Below the pieces are notes generated by a model, which saw only the letters and a list, made by a program, of their open reading frames with translations, ran no database searches and was not told where the DNA came from. A stretch of DNA of 64,000 nt from Marinilabiliaceae bacterium ANBcel2 (GTDB lineage: Bacteria > Bacteroidota > Bacteroidia > Bacteroidales > Marinilabiliaceae): positions 496,001-560,000 of the forward strand of contig JARULA010000001.1 in NCBI GenBank assembly GCA_029688995.1. Direction: 5' to 3'. Shown piece after piece: positions 18,342 through 49,701 of the stretch; positions within the stretch are counted from its first letter, which is position 1; every line of letters begins with the position of its first letter. The position numbers and the translations under genes are program-made.

Positions 18342-19214
18342 ATGATACGTATAGTAACTTTAGCCCTCTCAATTTTAATGCTGTGGAGCTGTTCCTCAGG
18401 ACCATCTAAAACAGAACTGCAAAACAGAGCAGATTCATTAACTGTTATAGCAGCCAAAAGAGATAACCAAATAAACTACTTTATTGAAACCGTAGCCGAT
18501 ATCGAAGATAATATAAGAAAGATAAAGGAGGCGGAGCAGATAATATCAGTTAGAGCCGACTCGGATGAGCTAATGATAGGTGACGGTGACCGTATAAATG
18601 ATGATTTGAACCTTATATATGAGCTTATGGTTCAAAACAGAGAAAAAATAGAGTCGTTAGAGAAAGAGATGCAAAATGCAGGAGTTGAAAATAAAAGATT
18701 AAACCGCTTAATTGCAGGGTTAAATGAGCAGCTAAGAGATAAAAGTGAAAGAATTGCAACTCTGCAGCAAGAACTAAAAGAGAAAGATTTAAAAATAGAC
18801 ACCTTAAGCAATGAGCTGGAGTATCTCAGTTATGAGATTGACTCGGTAAGAGAAGCAAAAGAAGAGACTGAACAGCGTCTTAAAGAGAGTGATGAGAGGT
18901 ATTACAGTGGATGGTATGCAGTTGGGTCAAGAAGAGAGCTTAGAGATTACGGCATAACATCACGTGATGGATTTCTCTTTTTTGGAAGCACACAAGTTTT
19001 ACAGGATGATTTTGAAAAGCAATACTTCAATAGAATAGATATTAGAGAGACAGACTCAATAGAACTTTACAGCAACCGGGGAGAATTATTAACAAGTCAT
19101 CCCGAGGAGTCCTATAGTTTAATTGAAAATGAGGAGGGGCTATTAATATTAAATATATCTAACCCTGAGCTTTTCTGGAGCATCTCACGTTATCTGGTAA
19201 TTCAGGTGCGCTAA
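18342..19214 (+). CDS. Coiled-coil lipoprotein of unknown function
   Basis: 290 residues with a short lipoprotein signal ending LWSC (Cys17). Residues about 25-190 are a long heptad-rich coiled coil (repeated Leu/Ile with Lys, Glu, Asp; KSERIATLQQELKEKDLKIDTL is typical). The last 90 residues form a compact beta-rich domain starting at YYSGWYAVGSRRELRDYGI. I know similar periplasmic coiled-coil lipoproteins in Bacteroidota but no function. The gene lies one base after rsmI and 38 bases before the HAD hydrolase. Confidence 0.7.
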   Translation: MIRIVTLALSILMLWSCSSGPSKTELQNRADSLTVIAAKRDNQINYFIETVADIEDNIRKIKEAEQIISVRADSDELMIGDGDRINDDLNLIYELMVQNREKIESLEKEMQNAGVENKRLNRLIAGLNEQLRDKSERIATLQQELKEKDLKIDTLSNELEYLSYEIDSVREAKEETEQRLKESDERYYSGWYAVGSRRELRDYGITSRDGFLFFGSTQVLQDDFEKQYFNRIDIRETDSIELYSNRGELLTSHPEESYSLIENEEGLLILNISNPELFWSISRYLVIQVR

Positions 19215-19252
19215 AATAAGGTTGTCATTTAATTCACTCTTTAAAAGCGTTG

Positions 19253-19951
19253 ATGGGGAGTTATAAAAACATATTCTTTGATCTGGATCATACTTTGTGG
19301 GATTATAAAAGAAATGAGCAGTTGACAATAAAAACTCTTCTTGCAAAGTATGATTTAAAGGATTTTAGCACAAACATCGATAGTTTTTTTGCTATTTACA
19401 CACCTACAAACGAATTGCTATGGGAGAAACTTCAAAAAAAAGAGATAAAAAGAAGTGATCTTATTATTAACCGCTTCTCAATTACATTCAACAAAATGGG
19501 GATAGATGACCCTCTATTAATTAACCGGTTTGCTACTGATTTTGTTGAGCTTAATCCATATCAAAAATCACTAATACCATACACCAGAGAGCTTTTAAAC
19601 TATCTTTATCCAAAATACAATCTCTATATAATAACTAACGGATTTACCTCTACACAAGAGATAAAGCTGGAAAAAAGCGAAATAAAAAAATACTTTAAAA
19701 AGGTATATACATCAGAAAAAGCAGCAGCATCAAAGCCATCAAAAAGCTTCTTTCAATATGCTATAAAAAGCAGCAATGCAAAAAAAGCTGAGAGTCTTAT
19801 CATCGGAGACAGTCTGCACAACGATATTGCAGGTGCAATAAACTTCAATTTAGATTATATCTATTTTAACCCATCCAATAAAACCTGCTCCATTCCTATA
19901 GATCCTAAAAGGGCTATAACTTCATTAAAAGAGCTATTTAAACTACTGTAG
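19253..19951 (+). CDS. HAD hydrolase, YjjG-type nucleotidase family
   Basis: About 232 residues starting at ATG 19253; the TTG one codon earlier is unlikely. The HAD motifs are in order: FFDLDHTLWD (nucleophile Asp10, acid Asp12), an ITNG motif II, a Lys in KPSKSFFQYA, and IGDSLHNDIAGA motif IV. The combination with DHTLWD and the helical cap matches the YjjG family, which dephosphorylates pyrimidine nucleoside monophosphates including non-canonical ones. It ends 46 bases before the convergent dnaB. Confidence 0.88.
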   Translation: MGSYKNIFFDLDHTLWDYKRNEQLTIKTLLAKYDLKDFSTNIDSFFAIYTPTNELLWEKLQKKEIKRSDLIINRFSITFNKMGIDDPLLINRFATDFVELNPYQKSLIPYTRELLNYLYPKYNLYIITNGFTSTQEIKLEKSEIKKYFKKVYTSEKAAASKPSKSFFQYAIKSSNAKKAESLIIGDSLHNDIAGAINFNLDYIYFNPSNKTCSIPIDPKRAITSLKELFKLL

Positions 19952-19996
19952 AACAGGTGTCTCTCATAAAAAAAGAGAAAGCAGGTAATTCTGCAT

Positions 19997-21538
19997 TTAA
20001 AATTCAGGAGGACGCTCAGATTTAGTATCAAATTGAAATCCTTCATCATTATCAGAGCTATCTGAAGGACTGTTCATCTTTGATCCAAGTGTAACGGGAG
20101 CTACAGACTCTTCAACACCAAATCCTCCGGTAAAAGTATCACTCTGAAAATCTTCAAATCTAATAACCTCGGGACGAAATCTTAACCGCACATCTCCGGT
20201 AGCACCATTACGATGTTTTGCTATAATCAGCTCTGCCGCCCCAATTAAGCTTTGACCATGCTCATCTTCAGTTATTCCATAATATTCAGGACGATGAATA
20301 AATAATACCATATCGGCATCCTGCTCAATAGCTCCCGACTCTCGCAAGTCGGCAAGCTGAGGGCGCTTACCTTCACCTGTTCGGGCTTCAACCCCTCTGT
20401 TTAGCTGAGAGAGAGCAATTATAGGAACATTAAGCTCCTTGGCTAACCCTTTTAATGAACGTGATATCATACTAACCTCCTCCTGTCTGTTACCGGGATT
20501 CATTCCGCTAGCATTCATCAACTGCAAATAATCAATTATAATAATTTGAACATCATGCTGCTTTTTTAAGCGACGACACTTGGCTCTTAATTCAAAAACA
20601 GAAAGCCCGGCTGTATCATCAACAAAAAGAGGCGCGTCAACCAAAGTTTCAATCTTGTGGTGTAACTGCTCCCATTCAAAAGGGGCAAGATTTCCATTTT
20701 TAATCTTTTCAGCAGGCAGTTCGGTTTCTGATACAATCAAACGATTAACAAGCTGAACATTTGCCATCTCCAGAGAAAAAAGAGCTACAGGCTGTTTATA
20801 CTTTACAGCCATATTACGAGCCATTGAGAGAACAAAACCGGTTTTACCCATAGCAGGGCGAGCTGCAATAATAACTAAATCGGAGGCTTGCCAACCCGAT
20901 GTCATACGATCTAATTCACTAAATCCGGTAGGAACACCACTTAAACCATCTTCCCTTTTACCGGCAATCTCTATCAACTCAAGCGCTTCACTAACAACTG
21001 GATTAATTTGAACTGCATCTTTTTTCATGCTACCCTGAGAAAGCAGAAACAGACTATTTTCAGCTTCCTCTAAAAGATCATTAACATCCTCCGACTCATC
21101 ATAAGCTTTAGTTTGAATAACCCCCGAGATTTTAATCATCTCGCGCTGCAAATATTTTTGATAAATAATACGGGAGTGATATTCTATGTGTGCTGCCGAA
21201 GCAACTCGACCGGTTAACTGTGTTATATAAAAAGCTCCTCCCACATCTTCAATTCGCCCCATTCGTCTAAGCTCCTCTGTAACAGTTAACATATCAACGG
21301 GCTCCTGCCGGCCAAAAAGATATGTTACAGCCTCAAAAATAAACTGATGAGCCTCTTTATAAAAACAGTCTGCTTTTAATATTTCAGAAACATTGGCAAA
21401 CGCATCTCTCTCTAAAAGCATCGCACCTAACACAGCCTCTTCTAACTCGATAGCTTGTGGTGGCATTTTGCCTTCTCCTGAATCCTGAATAATATAGTTC
21501 TGTTTGCTTCTGTTGTTATTATAACGAGCACCTGCCAT
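19997..21538 (-). CDS. dnaB: Replicative DNA helicase DnaB
   Basis: 513 residues: N-terminal helicase-loader domain (PQAIELEEAVLGAMLLERDA), linker, then the RecA-like motor with Walker A ARPAMGKT at 226-233, Walker B IIIIDYLQLM, and the arginine-finger region LRESGAIEQDADMVLFIHR. It unwinds DNA ahead of the replication fork as a hexamer. No intein is present. Residues 111-139 (RVASAAHIEYHSRIIYQKYL and onward) recur in a degraded copy 1.3 kb away at 22486-22572, described separately. The gene stands alone between convergent and divergent neighbours. Confidence 0.97.
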   Translation of the reverse strand: MAGARYNNNRSKQNYIIQDSGEGKMPPQAIELEEAVLGAMLLERDAFANVSEILKADCFYKEAHQFIFEAVTYLFGRQEPVDMLTVTEELRRMGRIEDVGGAFYITQLTGRVASAAHIEYHSRIIYQKYLQREMIKISGVIQTKAYDESEDVNDLLEEAENSLFLLSQGSMKKDAVQINPVVSEALELIEIAGKREDGLSGVPTGFSELDRMTSGWQASDLVIIAARPAMGKTGFVLSMARNMAVKYKQPVALFSLEMANVQLVNRLIVSETELPAEKIKNGNLAPFEWEQLHHKIETLVDAPLFVDDTAGLSVFELRAKCRRLKKQHDVQIIIIDYLQLMNASGMNPGNRQEEVSMISRSLKGLAKELNVPIIALSQLNRGVEARTGEGKRPQLADLRESGAIEQDADMVLFIHRPEYYGITEDEHGQSLIGAAELIIAKHRNGATGDVRLRFRPEVIRFEDFQSDTFTGGFGVEESVAPVTLGSKMNSPSDSSDNDEGFQFDTKSERPPEF

Positions 21539-21566
21539 TTTACATTGTTTTTAAAAAAGTGGATAA

Positions 21567-21574
21567 CAAAGTTA
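21567..21574 (-). promoter_or_regulatory. -7 element of dnaB
   Basis: Minus strand TAACTTTG matches TAnnTTTG; it would start transcripts about 20 bases before the dnaB ATG. The -33 element is not clear. Confidence 0.4.
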
Positions 21575-21640
21575 CAATTTATAAAGCAATTTACTTTTCT
21601 TTGTATAGTATCAAATTTGTTAAAAACATAGAACCCCACA

Positions 21641-22465
21641 ATGATAGTTTTTCCAAATGCAAAAATAAATGCAGGACTCTTTATTACCGAAAAACGGCAA
21701 GATGGATTTCATAATATTGAGACTCTCTTTTTACCTGTTTTTAAGTTATATGATATTCTGGAAGTTATAACTAATCATGACTCAACCGATGATAAGTTTA
21801 CATGCTCGGGGATTCCCGTTAATGGTTCTTCTAATAACAATCTTTGCATTAAAGCAATTAAATTATTAAGAGAAATAGAGGAGATTCCTCCTTTAAAAAT
21901 TCACCTCCATAAGGTGATTCCTTTGGGGGCCGGACTGGGAGGAGGGTCGTCTGATGCAGCATTTATGCTTAAACTACTAAATCAACAGTACAACTGTAAT
22001 TTAACCAACGAAAAACTTGAAGAGTTAGCAATCAGGTTGGGTTCCGACTGCCCCGTTTTTATTAAAAACAGACCGGTAGCAGCAGTGGGAAAAGGTGAAA
22101 TTTTTTCAAAGGCTAAAGTAGATTTAAACAACTACTATTTAACAATTATAAAACCCCTAAATATAAATATCTCCACTGCTGAAGCTTATAAAAACTGCAC
22201 TGTAACAAAACCTAAAACTCCTCTTAAAAAGCTTACAGAACTCCCTGTTGAAAGATGGAGAGGTAAAGTTATTAATGATTTTGAAAAAGAGATAACAAAA
22301 AAGTATCCCGAAATAAAAGAGATTAAAGAGAAAATGTATAAAAACAGTGCTCTTTATGCATCAATGTCGGGTAGCGGCTCTTCGGTATTCGGACTATTTA
22401 AAAATCCCCCTGATATTAAATGGCCCAATAACTATTTTGTTCATAATGAAAAGATATACTATTAA
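21641..22465 (+). CDS. ispE: 4-diphosphocytidyl-2-C-methyl-D-erythritol kinase
   Basis: 274 residues of the GHMP kinase family: PNAKINAGLFI at the N-terminus, the ATP-binding PLGAGLGGGSSDAAF loop, and SGSGSSVFGLF near the C-terminus. It phosphorylates CDP-methylerythritol in the MEP isoprenoid pathway; ispF of the same pathway is at 51.8 kb. It begins about 100 bases from dnaB on the opposite strand. Confidence 0.95.
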   Translation: MIVFPNAKINAGLFITEKRQDGFHNIETLFLPVFKLYDILEVITNHDSTDDKFTCSGIPVNGSSNNNLCIKAIKLLREIEEIPPLKIHLHKVIPLGAGLGGGSSDAAFMLKLLNQQYNCNLTNEKLEELAIRLGSDCPVFIKNRPVAAVGKGEIFSKAKVDLNNYYLTIIKPLNINISTAEAYKNCTVTKPKTPLKKLTELPVERWRGKVINDFEKEITKKYPEIKEIKEKMYKNSALYASMSGSGSSVFGLFKNPPDIKWPNNYFVHNEKIYY

Positions 22466-22485
22466 ATATCTGTAACCGAAAATAA

Positions 22486-22572
22486 CCCCGCTATTTTAAT
22501 CATCTCCTGCTGCAAATACTTTTGATAAATAATACGGGAGTGGTATTCAATATGTGGTGGCAAGGCAACTCT
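22486..22572 (-). pseudogene. Remnant of a second dnaB (about 29 codons)
   Basis: Read on the minus strand, this gap encodes RVALPPHIEYHSRIIYQK and continues to KIAG, matching DnaB residues 111-139. I count 74 of 87 bases and 24 of 29 residues identical to the dnaB at 19997-21538. Just beyond, a one-base loss shifts the frame and the similarity fades; on the other side an in-frame stop (TAA) occurs within a few codons. Seven of the twelve codon differences are synonymous, which suggests the fragment came from a dnaB copy that had evolved under selection, not from a fresh duplication. It has no start and no motor domain, so it is a dead relic in the 147-base gap between ispE and the sensor kinase. 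Confidence 0.85.
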
Positions 22573-22612
22573 ATCGGAGATTTTTGTTTACTGCATCTCC
22601 ATTATTATAAAT

Positions 22613-25600
22613 TTACTTCTTCCCGCTATCTGATAAAGGAATAGTAAAACTAAAAGTGCTGCCACGATTTAAAGTGCTCTCAATATAAAAAGCTCCACAA
22701 TTTTTTTCAATAAACTCCTTCACCAAAACCAGTCCGAGCCCCGATCCCTTTTCTCCTTCAGTTCCTATACGTGAAGAAGATTCATTGCTATTTTTTAATA
22801 TAGCATCTATCTCTTTACCGGAAATACCTATACCGGTATCCGATACAGAAAACCTAACACTATCACCCTCCTTCTCAGTTTTTATTAATATTTCACCACC
22901 ACGTGGAGTAAACTTAACAGCATTCATCAATAAATTGCGAACAACAATTTTTAACATATTAACATCACCAAAAATTTTATAATCACTGCATAAAGAATCA
23001 TTGATAATCAATCCCTTTTTCACGGCACTGTTACGAATAATATCAAGAGTCTCAACAAGTATCTCATCAATAGAGGTATGCACTGGCTTATAATCTATCT
23101 CATTGACTTGAGATCGCGCCCAGTAAAGAAGATTATCCAACAGATTATATACAGTCACCGAAGAGTTGTAAATCAAACGAGCATATTTTATTACCTCCTC
23201 CCTGTTATTATCAGTTTCAACCAAAAGAGAAGAGAACCCCATAATTGTATTGAAAGGGGAGCGCAAATCATGAGCAACAATAGAGAACAGCTTGTCTCTG
23301 GTATTAAGCAGCTGAACCAGCTCTCTATTTTTATCCTGCAATTCACATGCCTGATTTTCAAGTTCTTCGGACTGCTCCTCTATAATTTTTTGGCGCTCCT
23401 CCAAAACTGAGTTTATCCGGTTAAGCTCAACTGTACGCTGTTTTAAAATAAGATTATTACTTCTTAATTTTGCTGTTTTTCTTGCAATCTCATCAGCCAA
23501 AACAACTTTTTGTCTGTTCAACTGCTCAGTTCGTAATCTAATAACAAGCAAAACAGTTAAGCCCAATAAAAAAGCAACAAGCAGATAAAACCAACATGTT
23601 CGCCACCATGGAGGAGTTATAATAATGTCAAGAGTGACTCCCTCTCTGTTCCACACGCCATCATTATTGGCAGCAATCACAGTAAAACTATACTCTCCCG
23701 GATTAAGATTGGTATATGTCACAGATCTGCGACTACCCAAATCTATAAATTCATTATCAAAACCCTTAAGCATACATGCATATTGATTTCTTAAAGGATT
23801 CATCATATTTAATGCGACAAATTCAAAAGTTATAAAGTTTTGATCATAACTTAAAACCACCTCGTCAACCAGACTTATATGCTTATCAAGTATAGAGCTC
23901 TCACCATACTCATCAACCTCCTCATTAAAGAGAGAAAATTTTGATATTACAACTTCGGGCGGTTCATTATTAAGCATTACGTTATCAGGATTAAAATAAC
24001 TAACACCTTCACTACCGGCAAAATAGAGCATATCTTTATTGTTAAAATAGGATGCTCCTAAATTAAAACCATCGGCCTGCAATCCGTCGTTCTCACCAAA
24101 GTAGTATGTATCACCTGTCTCCATATTATATTTATGAAGTCCGCCCTGGGTAGAAATCCACATATCTCCATTTTGATCCTCCTCAATTGCGGTAATATAA
24201 TAGTTGTTCATATTACCGTCATGACGTTGAAAGCTCTCATCCTTGTAACAGTAGGTGTATAGCCCATAATTTGCACCTATCCATATCTGATCATTACTGT
24301 CAATAAAAAGAACCAGTATTTGGTTACCATGCAAAGAGCTCTTATCACTCAAATCGGGATTACCCAAAAAAACTTCAAACTGGTCACTCCCTTTTGACAG
24401 GTAGTTTAAACCATAGGCAGTTGCTACCCATAAACCACCGGATGAATCAACAACCAAATCATTAACCCAATTAGAACTCAAGTTATAGTTTTTATGATTG
24501 TAATTGATAAACTCCCCATCTTCTATATCAAAATAGTCAACTCCCGCTCCTTGCGTTGCGAGCCATAAATTACCACCTTTATCCTCAGCTGCAGCTTTAA
24601 TATTATTATGAGATATTCCACTATTTGAAATGCGCCAACTTTCAAAACTTTTATTATCAAAATTATAATTATGCAACCCTCCATTATACGTTCCTACCCA
24701 CAAACGATTTTGTGAATCATTTAAAATAAAATGAACACTCCCCATTCCCAGTCTGCCCGACTCATTCTCTGTCGATGAGATTCTCTCTATAGCAACATCA
24801 TCCCAGTTAAAAATATCAATACCACCATTAAAGCTACCAAGCCATAAATTCCCTTTATGATCTTCTCCTATAGCTGTAATATTAGGATCGGATGTATGCC
24901 AAAAGAGCCAATCAGAGTTATTATAATTATTAAACCCCCTTTGTGTATGGCTCACATAAACACCGTTACCATTATGAAAAGAGTAAAAATTCCCCTGTTT
25001 ATCCTCAAAAATACCGGCAATATTAGGCGGAACAGAATAGTGCCTGTTTGGATCATGATAATAACCATAAAAATAGTCATCCTCCTCAACATATAACTTA
25101 AACCCACTATAGTCACATGCCCAAAGTCTCTCTTTACTATCCTGATAAAATTCAAAAACAAACCGTTCGGAACTATTATGCAAATAACGATTAACTTTAC
25201 GATTTGCAGTATCTATTCGGGCTATTCCATCATTTTCAATAGCCACAAAAAGATAGTCATTATAGAGTTGCATATCCAAAACAGCAAAATCTGTCTCTGC
25301 AACATCCAAATCCGACCCTCCATAATGATCAATAACCTCATAACGATCATCCCTTGATACTCTTATAACCCCTCCACCATTAAAATGAGATATCCAAACA
25401 CATCCAAAGTTACAAAATTCAACACCTGATATATCACCATATGAAGAGGTATATATTTCCTGAAAAGCCCAATCATCTTTATTAAATTCATAAAGAGTAT
25501 TTTCAACAGCAGTAATCAAAGATCCTGAAGGAGATTCAGCAAGCATTCTAACATAAACATCAGGTAGTGCCGCTGCAGACTCATCAGTTGCTACCGGAAC

Positions 25601-25963
25601 AAAAAGATCTAACTCTCGGTTGTATAAAGCAATTCCAGAAGGAGAGGCAACCCACACTCTGTTTTGTGAATCGATCAGCAAATGATTTACCTGATTGCCT
25701 ATAAGCGATATCTCTGACTCGGAATCATATCCCCTGTATACAGAGATATCATAACCATCAAACCTATTAATACCATCTATTGAACCAATCCAGATATAAC
25801 CGGTTGTATCCTGATCCATAGCAGTAACATAACTACTGGCAAGATTAGAATAACCTACAATACGTGAAAAATTAAAATAAGGAACATCAACAGCAAAAGC
25901 AGGTTTGCATAGAAACAAACCTGCAAAAAAAAGCGCCAAACAAACATAAATCTTTTTCCTCAC
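22613..25963 (-). CDS. Periplasmic-propeller sensor histidine kinase
   Basis: 1116 residues. A signal peptide (LALFFAGLFLCKPAFA) leads into two seven-blade-like propellers built of Reg_prop repeats (GYIWIGSIDGINRFDG, NRLWVGTYNGGLHNY, GDMWISTQGGLHKY). Next come a Y_Y_Y domain (LNPGEYSFTVIAANNDG), one membrane span (about 790-810), a coiled coil, a HisKA domain with His898 (SIVAHDLRSPFN) and a HATPase (N box NLLMNAVKFTPRGG, DTGIGI, GSGLGL). It ends there: the receiver and AraC-type domains of hybrid two-component systems are absent, and no response regulator lies next to it. It probably senses a glycan or cell-surface signal and passes phosphate to a distant regulator. Confidence 0.92.
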   Translation of the reverse strand: MRKKIYVCLALFFAGLFLCKPAFAVDVPYFNFSRIVGYSNLASSYVTAMDQDTTGYIWIGSIDGINRFDGYDISVYRGYDSESEISLIGNQVNHLLIDSQNRVWVASPSGIALYNRELDLFVPVATDESAAALPDVYVRMLAESPSGSLITAVENTLYEFNKDDWAFQEIYTSSYGDISGVEFCNFGCVWISHFNGGGVIRVSRDDRYEVIDHYGGSDLDVAETDFAVLDMQLYNDYLFVAIENDGIARIDTANRKVNRYLHNSSERFVFEFYQDSKERLWACDYSGFKLYVEEDDYFYGYYHDPNRHYSVPPNIAGIFEDKQGNFYSFHNGNGVYVSHTQRGFNNYNNSDWLFWHTSDPNITAIGEDHKGNLWLGSFNGGIDIFNWDDVAIERISSTENESGRLGMGSVHFILNDSQNRLWVGTYNGGLHNYNFDNKSFESWRISNSGISHNNIKAAAEDKGGNLWLATQGAGVDYFDIEDGEFINYNHKNYNLSSNWVNDLVVDSSGGLWVATAYGLNYLSKGSDQFEVFLGNPDLSDKSSLHGNQILVLFIDSNDQIWIGANYGLYTYCYKDESFQRHDGNMNNYYITAIEEDQNGDMWISTQGGLHKYNMETGDTYYFGENDGLQADGFNLGASYFNNKDMLYFAGSEGVSYFNPDNVMLNNEPPEVVISKFSLFNEEVDEYGESSILDKHISLVDEVVLSYDQNFITFEFVALNMMNPLRNQYACMLKGFDNEFIDLGSRRSVTYTNLNPGEYSFTVIAANNDGVWNREGVTLDIIITPPWWRTCWFYLLVAFLLGLTVLLVIRLRTEQLNRQKVVLADEIARKTAKLRSNNLILKQRTVELNRINSVLEERQKIIEEQSEELENQACELQDKNRELVQLLNTRDKLFSIVAHDLRSPFNTIMGFSSLLVETDNNREEVIKYARLIYNSSVTVYNLLDNLLYWARSQVNEIDYKPVHTSIDEILVETLDIIRNSAVKKGLIINDSLCSDYKIFGDVNMLKIVVRNLLMNAVKFTPRGGEILIKTEKEGDSVRFSVSDTGIGISGKEIDAILKNSNESSSRIGTEGEKGSGLGLVLVKEFIEKNCGAFYIESTLNRGSTFSFTIPLSDSGKK

Positions 25964-26033
25964 AAGTATAAACCCTTTGTAATTGCTTATACCTCTAATG
26001 GACGATTTTAGTTATAGTAAAATGGCTTTTTTT

Positions 26034-49448: not shown

Positions 49449-49450
49449 AG

Positions 49451-49523
<73 letters not shown>

Positions 49524-49628
49524 TATTTGTTATTTTTTAATTTAAATGGTTTAAAAATAACAAAACATCCATAATCAATTAACCCTTAAAATCTAATTTG
49601 ATAATAAAACCTTTAAATTATTACCAAG

Positions 49629-49701
<73 letters not shown>

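Follow-up and report, generated by a model that had tools for sequence, protein, structure and literature searches.

The locus considered here is most readily compared with bacterial pseudogenes and gene remnants, with short templated insertions, for which template switching is the mechanism, and with tandem duplications that are subsequently lost. The gene concerned, dnaB, is an essential replication gene. The dnaB-derived relic described below resembles a bacterial gene remnant in being partial, frameshifted, apparently unconstrained, situated near its likely parent and absent from the relatives sampled, and differs from one in being very short (98 bases) and in deriving from a replication gene regarded as essential. 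With short templated insertions it would share the copying of a short stretch from nearby DNA, although it carries no demonstrated diagnostic microhomology. Spontaneous duplication rates between 2e-3 and 4.6e-6 per gene per generation are given for three Salmonella loci in PMC3857721, in which many duplications, and tandem ones in particular, are described as unstable. As in tandem duplication with later loss, the present locus combines direct orientation with a short distance, and the second unit, if there was any, is lost; unlike the Salmonella case, it consists of one fragment only, the duplication itself is unseen and the breakpoints are indistinct. No dnaB relic elsewhere was named in the results of our literature search, which is not to claim that such relics are absent from print.

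The stretch of DNA analysed (64,000 nucleotides from Marinilabiliaceae bacterium ANBcel2, referred to as the window) contains an intact dnaB, a gene which we take to be ispE (the name coming from the initial annotation, the GHMP kinase domains from Pfam) and a sensor kinase gene (Table 1). The dnaB-like stretch starts 15 bases after the stop codon of ispE, approximately 1.3 kb from the intact dnaB and on the same strand in direct orientation, within a 698-kb contig of a draft genome of 35 contigs. Its alignment with dnaB comprises 98 columns at 84.7% identity, with 14 mismatches and one one-base indel, and reaches a score of 119, while 1000 dinucleotide shuffles of the gap scored 31 at best, so that the similarity is far above chance. 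The corresponding part of the intact protein includes the end of the DnaB N-terminal domain, which occupies residues 26-126 (Pfam). Over its core (positions 22486-22572) the relic shares 74 of 87 bases and 24 of 29 residues with dnaB codons 111-139, with 12 codons changed, seven of them silently; the residue of codon 110, beyond this core, also differs (G to D). The reading frame is disrupted by truncation, by the loss of one base from a run of C's (five in dnaB, four in the relic) and by an in-frame stop in the flank, just beyond the homologous stretch. These results bear out what the initial annotation had described: its identity counts were reproduced exactly on recount, the coordinates agree with the strand and distance given, the frameshift on one side and the stop on the other are present, more than half of the codon differences are silent, and the comparison with shuffled sequence that it had proposed leaves the similarity standing. 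When the DnaB protein was compared with its own draft genome (E 0.001), only two places were retrieved, these being dnaB itself and the relic. As a separate feature, the window contains two tRNA-Phe(GAA) genes (49450-49523 and 49628-49701, both on the minus strand), located about 103 bases apart within an identical 76-base repeat and representing an ordinary local tRNA duplication.

Table 1 Features of the locus and of the dispersed repeat, in window coordinates unless a locus is named.
Feature	Position	Strand	Remarks
Intact dnaB, replicative helicase	19997..21538	-	Pfam DnaB, DnaB_C
Counterpart of the relic within intact dnaB	21116..21213	-	End of the N-terminal domain and what follows
ispE (presumed name)	21641..22465	+	Pfam GHMP kinase domains
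Gap between ispE and kinase, 147 bases	22466..22612		Relic plus 15 and 35 flanking bases without detectable origin
dnaB-derived relic	22481..22577	-	Counterpart 21116-21213; one-base frameshift near 22486
Longest exact run common to relic and dnaB, 23 bases	22520..22542	-	From the alignment
In-frame stop in flank	22588..22590	-	Outside the homologous stretch
Sensor kinase, Reg_prop / Y_Y_Y / HisKA / HATPase	22613..25963	-	Pfam; convergent to ispE
Dispersed repeat copies	L134:297-354, L136:9649-9818, L139:15069-15358, L147:12217-12371, L147:16688-16841	both	

The closest sequence to the relic is the local dnaB (74 of 87 bases), the next best being a segment from a relative with 64 of 87 among 62 distinct dnaB segments, which were obtained from 80 such segments in the relatives' loci and do not represent every genome of the family. 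The local gene is therefore nearer to the relic, by ten bases of 87, than any other segment compared; in this as in all source comparisons the genomes included no other member of the same genus, and loci of the own genome (L001-L003, L033, L034 and L120) were excluded from counts on relatives. A dnaB match is present in 68 of 71 family genomes, the own genome included. Comparison of the relic DNA with these 71 genomes, considering the best candidates of each (up to 12), gave matches in 17, again including the own genome; the matches in the other genomes extend over 36-75 of 97 bases with 73-88% identity, and none is closer than the local dnaB. Among 393 genomes of the order, with up to two best candidates considered per genome, a match at E 1e-8 was obtained in the own genome and in one family member only, with none closer than the local gene. 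A phage or plasmid source was rejected, as no match at E 0.01 was obtained in the phage and plasmid collections searched. Across the family, order, phage and plasmid searches, which included no congener, no foreign dnaB closer than the local one was found. Extra DnaB-like genes occur in five of the 71 family genomes, and at 25-49% protein identity they are too distant to be the source of the relic. The nearest-match comparison suggested by the initial annotation as a means to distinguish transfer from duplication thus pointed to the local gene, and hence to duplication, and, among genomes without a congener, not to the dnaB of another species. From these comparisons the local dnaB appears to be the parent of the relic.

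A tree was built from 87 columns and 39 rows, including 37 segments that agree with the local gene at 58 or more of 87 bases. In this short tree a group of 12 rows with weak support contains both the relic and the local dnaB, which are mutually nearest by path (0.26, with next distances of 0.76 from the relic and 0.54 from the local gene). The two do not form a pair in the free tree; forcing them to do so costs 2.46 log-likelihood units and is not rejected (p-AU 0.348). Forcing the relic together with L122, L123 or L125 costs 12.0, 26.3 and 17.4 units, respectively, with p-AU values of 0.136, 0.085 and 0.166, these placements being worse and none of them rejected at 0.05.

The order dnaB (minus strand), ispE (plus strand) and sensor kinase (minus strand) is kept in relatives including Natronoflexus pectinivorans (L035) and Alkaliflexus imshenetskii (L036), in both of which the four genes before dnaB and a presumably asnS-like gene after the kinase are also kept. 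In eight distinct relatives of this order (those with an identical ispE end being counted once) the gap between ispE and the kinase measures 111, 1, 96, -8, -4, -8, -4 and -23 bases, negative values denoting overlap; the downstream stop was located by stepping along from the protein match, and single gap lengths may consequently be off (that of L016, -196, surely is), L114 being without a stop in reach. Six of the eight gaps are too small for the insert. Scores were computed for gaps longer than 10 bases, and the two that qualified reached 19 and 15 against the dnaB of the window, as compared to 119 for its own gap. No piece of dnaB is present in this gap in any of the eight relatives, be it the longer or intact copy envisaged by the initial annotation or a shorter one. 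The gaps of 96 and 111 bases belong to L006 and L004 and are without dnaB similarity. A small conserved gene in the gap was ruled out, being absent from all eight relatives of the same gene order. A further 20 relatives carry a downstream gene which we take to be biotin-carrier-like instead of the kinase, the top gap score among them being 29, in a gap of 366 bases. Self-comparison of the relatives' loci (blastn, 1e-4; 123 loci, several per genome) retrieved a second dnaB piece in 0 of the 81 with a dnaB match. As far as relatives were sampled, the insert is thus lineage-specific. Two other Bacteroidota loci (L075:1270-2700 and L078:5937-7364) differ from the window in their gene order, with dnaB placed after ispE and both genes on one strand.

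Residue changes were polarised against 30 distinct segments that match the local gene at 61 or more of 87 bases, the change at codon 110 being left out. At the five changed residues of codons 111-139 the residue of the intact gene is found in 29-30 of these 30 close relatives and that of the relic in 0-1, which places all five changes on the side of the relic and indicates that it has been decaying. Moreover, nine orthologue pairs (mutually non-independent) that also agree at exactly 74 of 87 bases have 26 or more of 29 residues in common, as compared to 24 for the relic. Taken together, these observations indicate that the relic has lost amino-acid constraint, at least for part of its time. 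With both base changes of codon 132 scored as non-silent, the 13 base differences between relic and dnaB comprise seven silent and six non-silent ones. A model in which the intact gene accepts silent changes only and the relic changes freely predicts 36-41% silent differences, and seven of 13 is compatible with it (P 0.14-0.26), whereas six non-silent differences would be rare between two selected copies (P 0.003-0.008, with an assumed dN/dS of 0.05) and seven silent ones would be too many for a frozen intact gene with the relic changing alone (P 0.012-0.030). Once the intact dnaB is granted silent changes of its own, the silent share is therefore no sign of a selected source. The initial annotation had concluded from the silent majority that the source was a selected dnaB homologue, either an older paralogue or an imported orthologue; neither source is supported by this fit, by the local dnaB being nearest among the segments compared or by the residue changes of codons 111-139 lying on the relic's side. 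At the silent sites the base that is commoner among the 30 relatives is that of the relic at codons 111, 117, 118 and 137 and that of the local gene at codons 113 and 120, with a tie at codon 128, and it would seem that both copies changed, or that older states were retained in the relic or introduced with it.

The homology, the nearness to the local gene among the sequences compared, the gaps without a dnaB piece in the sampled relatives and the relic-side residue changes of codons 111-139 together argue for local duplication. The relic very probably represents a partial local duplication of dnaB followed by neutral decay. Within this lineage, part of the local dnaB would have been inserted as a direct-orientation copy behind ispE, at a distance of about 1.3 kb, and the copied piece would then have decayed without function.

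Other origins were weighed against the same data. It is unlikely that the relic was donated by the dnaB of a congeneric sister species missing from the sample, through recombination in the dnaB-ispE region, and decayed thereafter. Such a source would have been missed among genomes that include no congener, and it would suit both the silent share and the four codons at which the silent base of the relic is the commoner one among relatives; yet no known sequence is nearer than the local dnaB, the relic-side residue changes of codons 111-139 would require decay on top of the import, and the position beside the local dnaB in the same orientation is explicable without import. Equally improbable is the derivation of the relic from a once complete second dnaB, a whole-gene duplicate reduced to approximately 98 bases. 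The shared strand and the proximity to the working gene would accord with such a duplicate, and some of the silent changes could have arisen while both copies were still working, but neither the protein search of the own genome nor the comparison of the flanks retrieved anything else of a second copy, no second dnaB piece was seen in the relatives' loci, and the extra DnaB-like genes of the family are too far removed to be the source. Of the "relic of a second dnaB" proposed in the initial annotation, the broken, dnaB-derived relic is supported, whereas "second dnaB" goes too far for a stretch of about 98 bases.

A function as antisense RNA, in which read-through transcripts of ispE carry 97 nt antisense to the dnaB mRNA and tune expression of the helicase, appears very unlikely from sequence features, despite the appropriate orientation and 23 consecutive bases that are fully complementary to the dnaB message. 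The relic is absent from the eight relatives of the same gene order, and the differences are not significantly clustered (p 0.18 and 0.28), which likewise provides no hint of selection or conversion. A structured RNA or RNA family was rejected, as positions 19000-26000 gave no Rfam match at gathering score and the RNA fold resembles that of shuffled sequences (z -0.03). A promoter and terminator scan of 21400-22800 detected no site inside the gap. If true, such a role would mean that a co-opted pseudogene fragment couples transcription of an isoprenoid gene to helicase level. Chance similarity or an assembly artefact has a negligible probability: no support was found for it beyond the draft state of the genome, 0 of 1000 shuffles came near the observed score, and an assembly error would be expected to yield an identical copy rather than one at 85%; moreover, the relic lies inside the 698-kb contig.

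Regarding the mode by which the local duplication may have occurred, our guess leans slightly towards tandem duplication over a single short templated insertion. A tandem duplication of approximately 1.4 kb, with one end within dnaB and the other shortly beyond ispE, would have been followed by erosion of the second unit down to about 98 bases, and the order dnaB, ispE and fragment in direct orientation is as expected from such an event. Alternatively, one short templated insertion would have taken place during replication or break repair. The 35 bases to the right of the relic revealed nothing of the remainder of a duplicated unit (323 of 500 shuffles reach their score against it), which renders the short templated insertion nearly as likely as the tandem duplication. 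For the left flank, a score of 15 against the unit was discarded, since the unit as cut included that flank and the match was to itself.

The frequency of such copies was estimated in 464 kb, made up of 400 kb of the same contig and the window, each compared with itself and not with the other. At E 1e-8 the dnaB relic is the sole gene-to-gap copy in this sequence whose partners are no more than 5 kb apart. The five other gene-to-gap matches lie 49-227 kb apart and all involve one dispersed repeat. This repeat is about 60-170 bases long, its copies are 74-86% alike, and it lies mostly between predicted ORFs in both orientations; it is perhaps a small mobile element. Scraps of the kind represented by the relic look uncommon in the examined genome and are of an ordinary kind, without a new principle. 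The relic would provide a further minor case in which local duplication leaves unselected scraps of a core gene behind in a compact bacterial genome.
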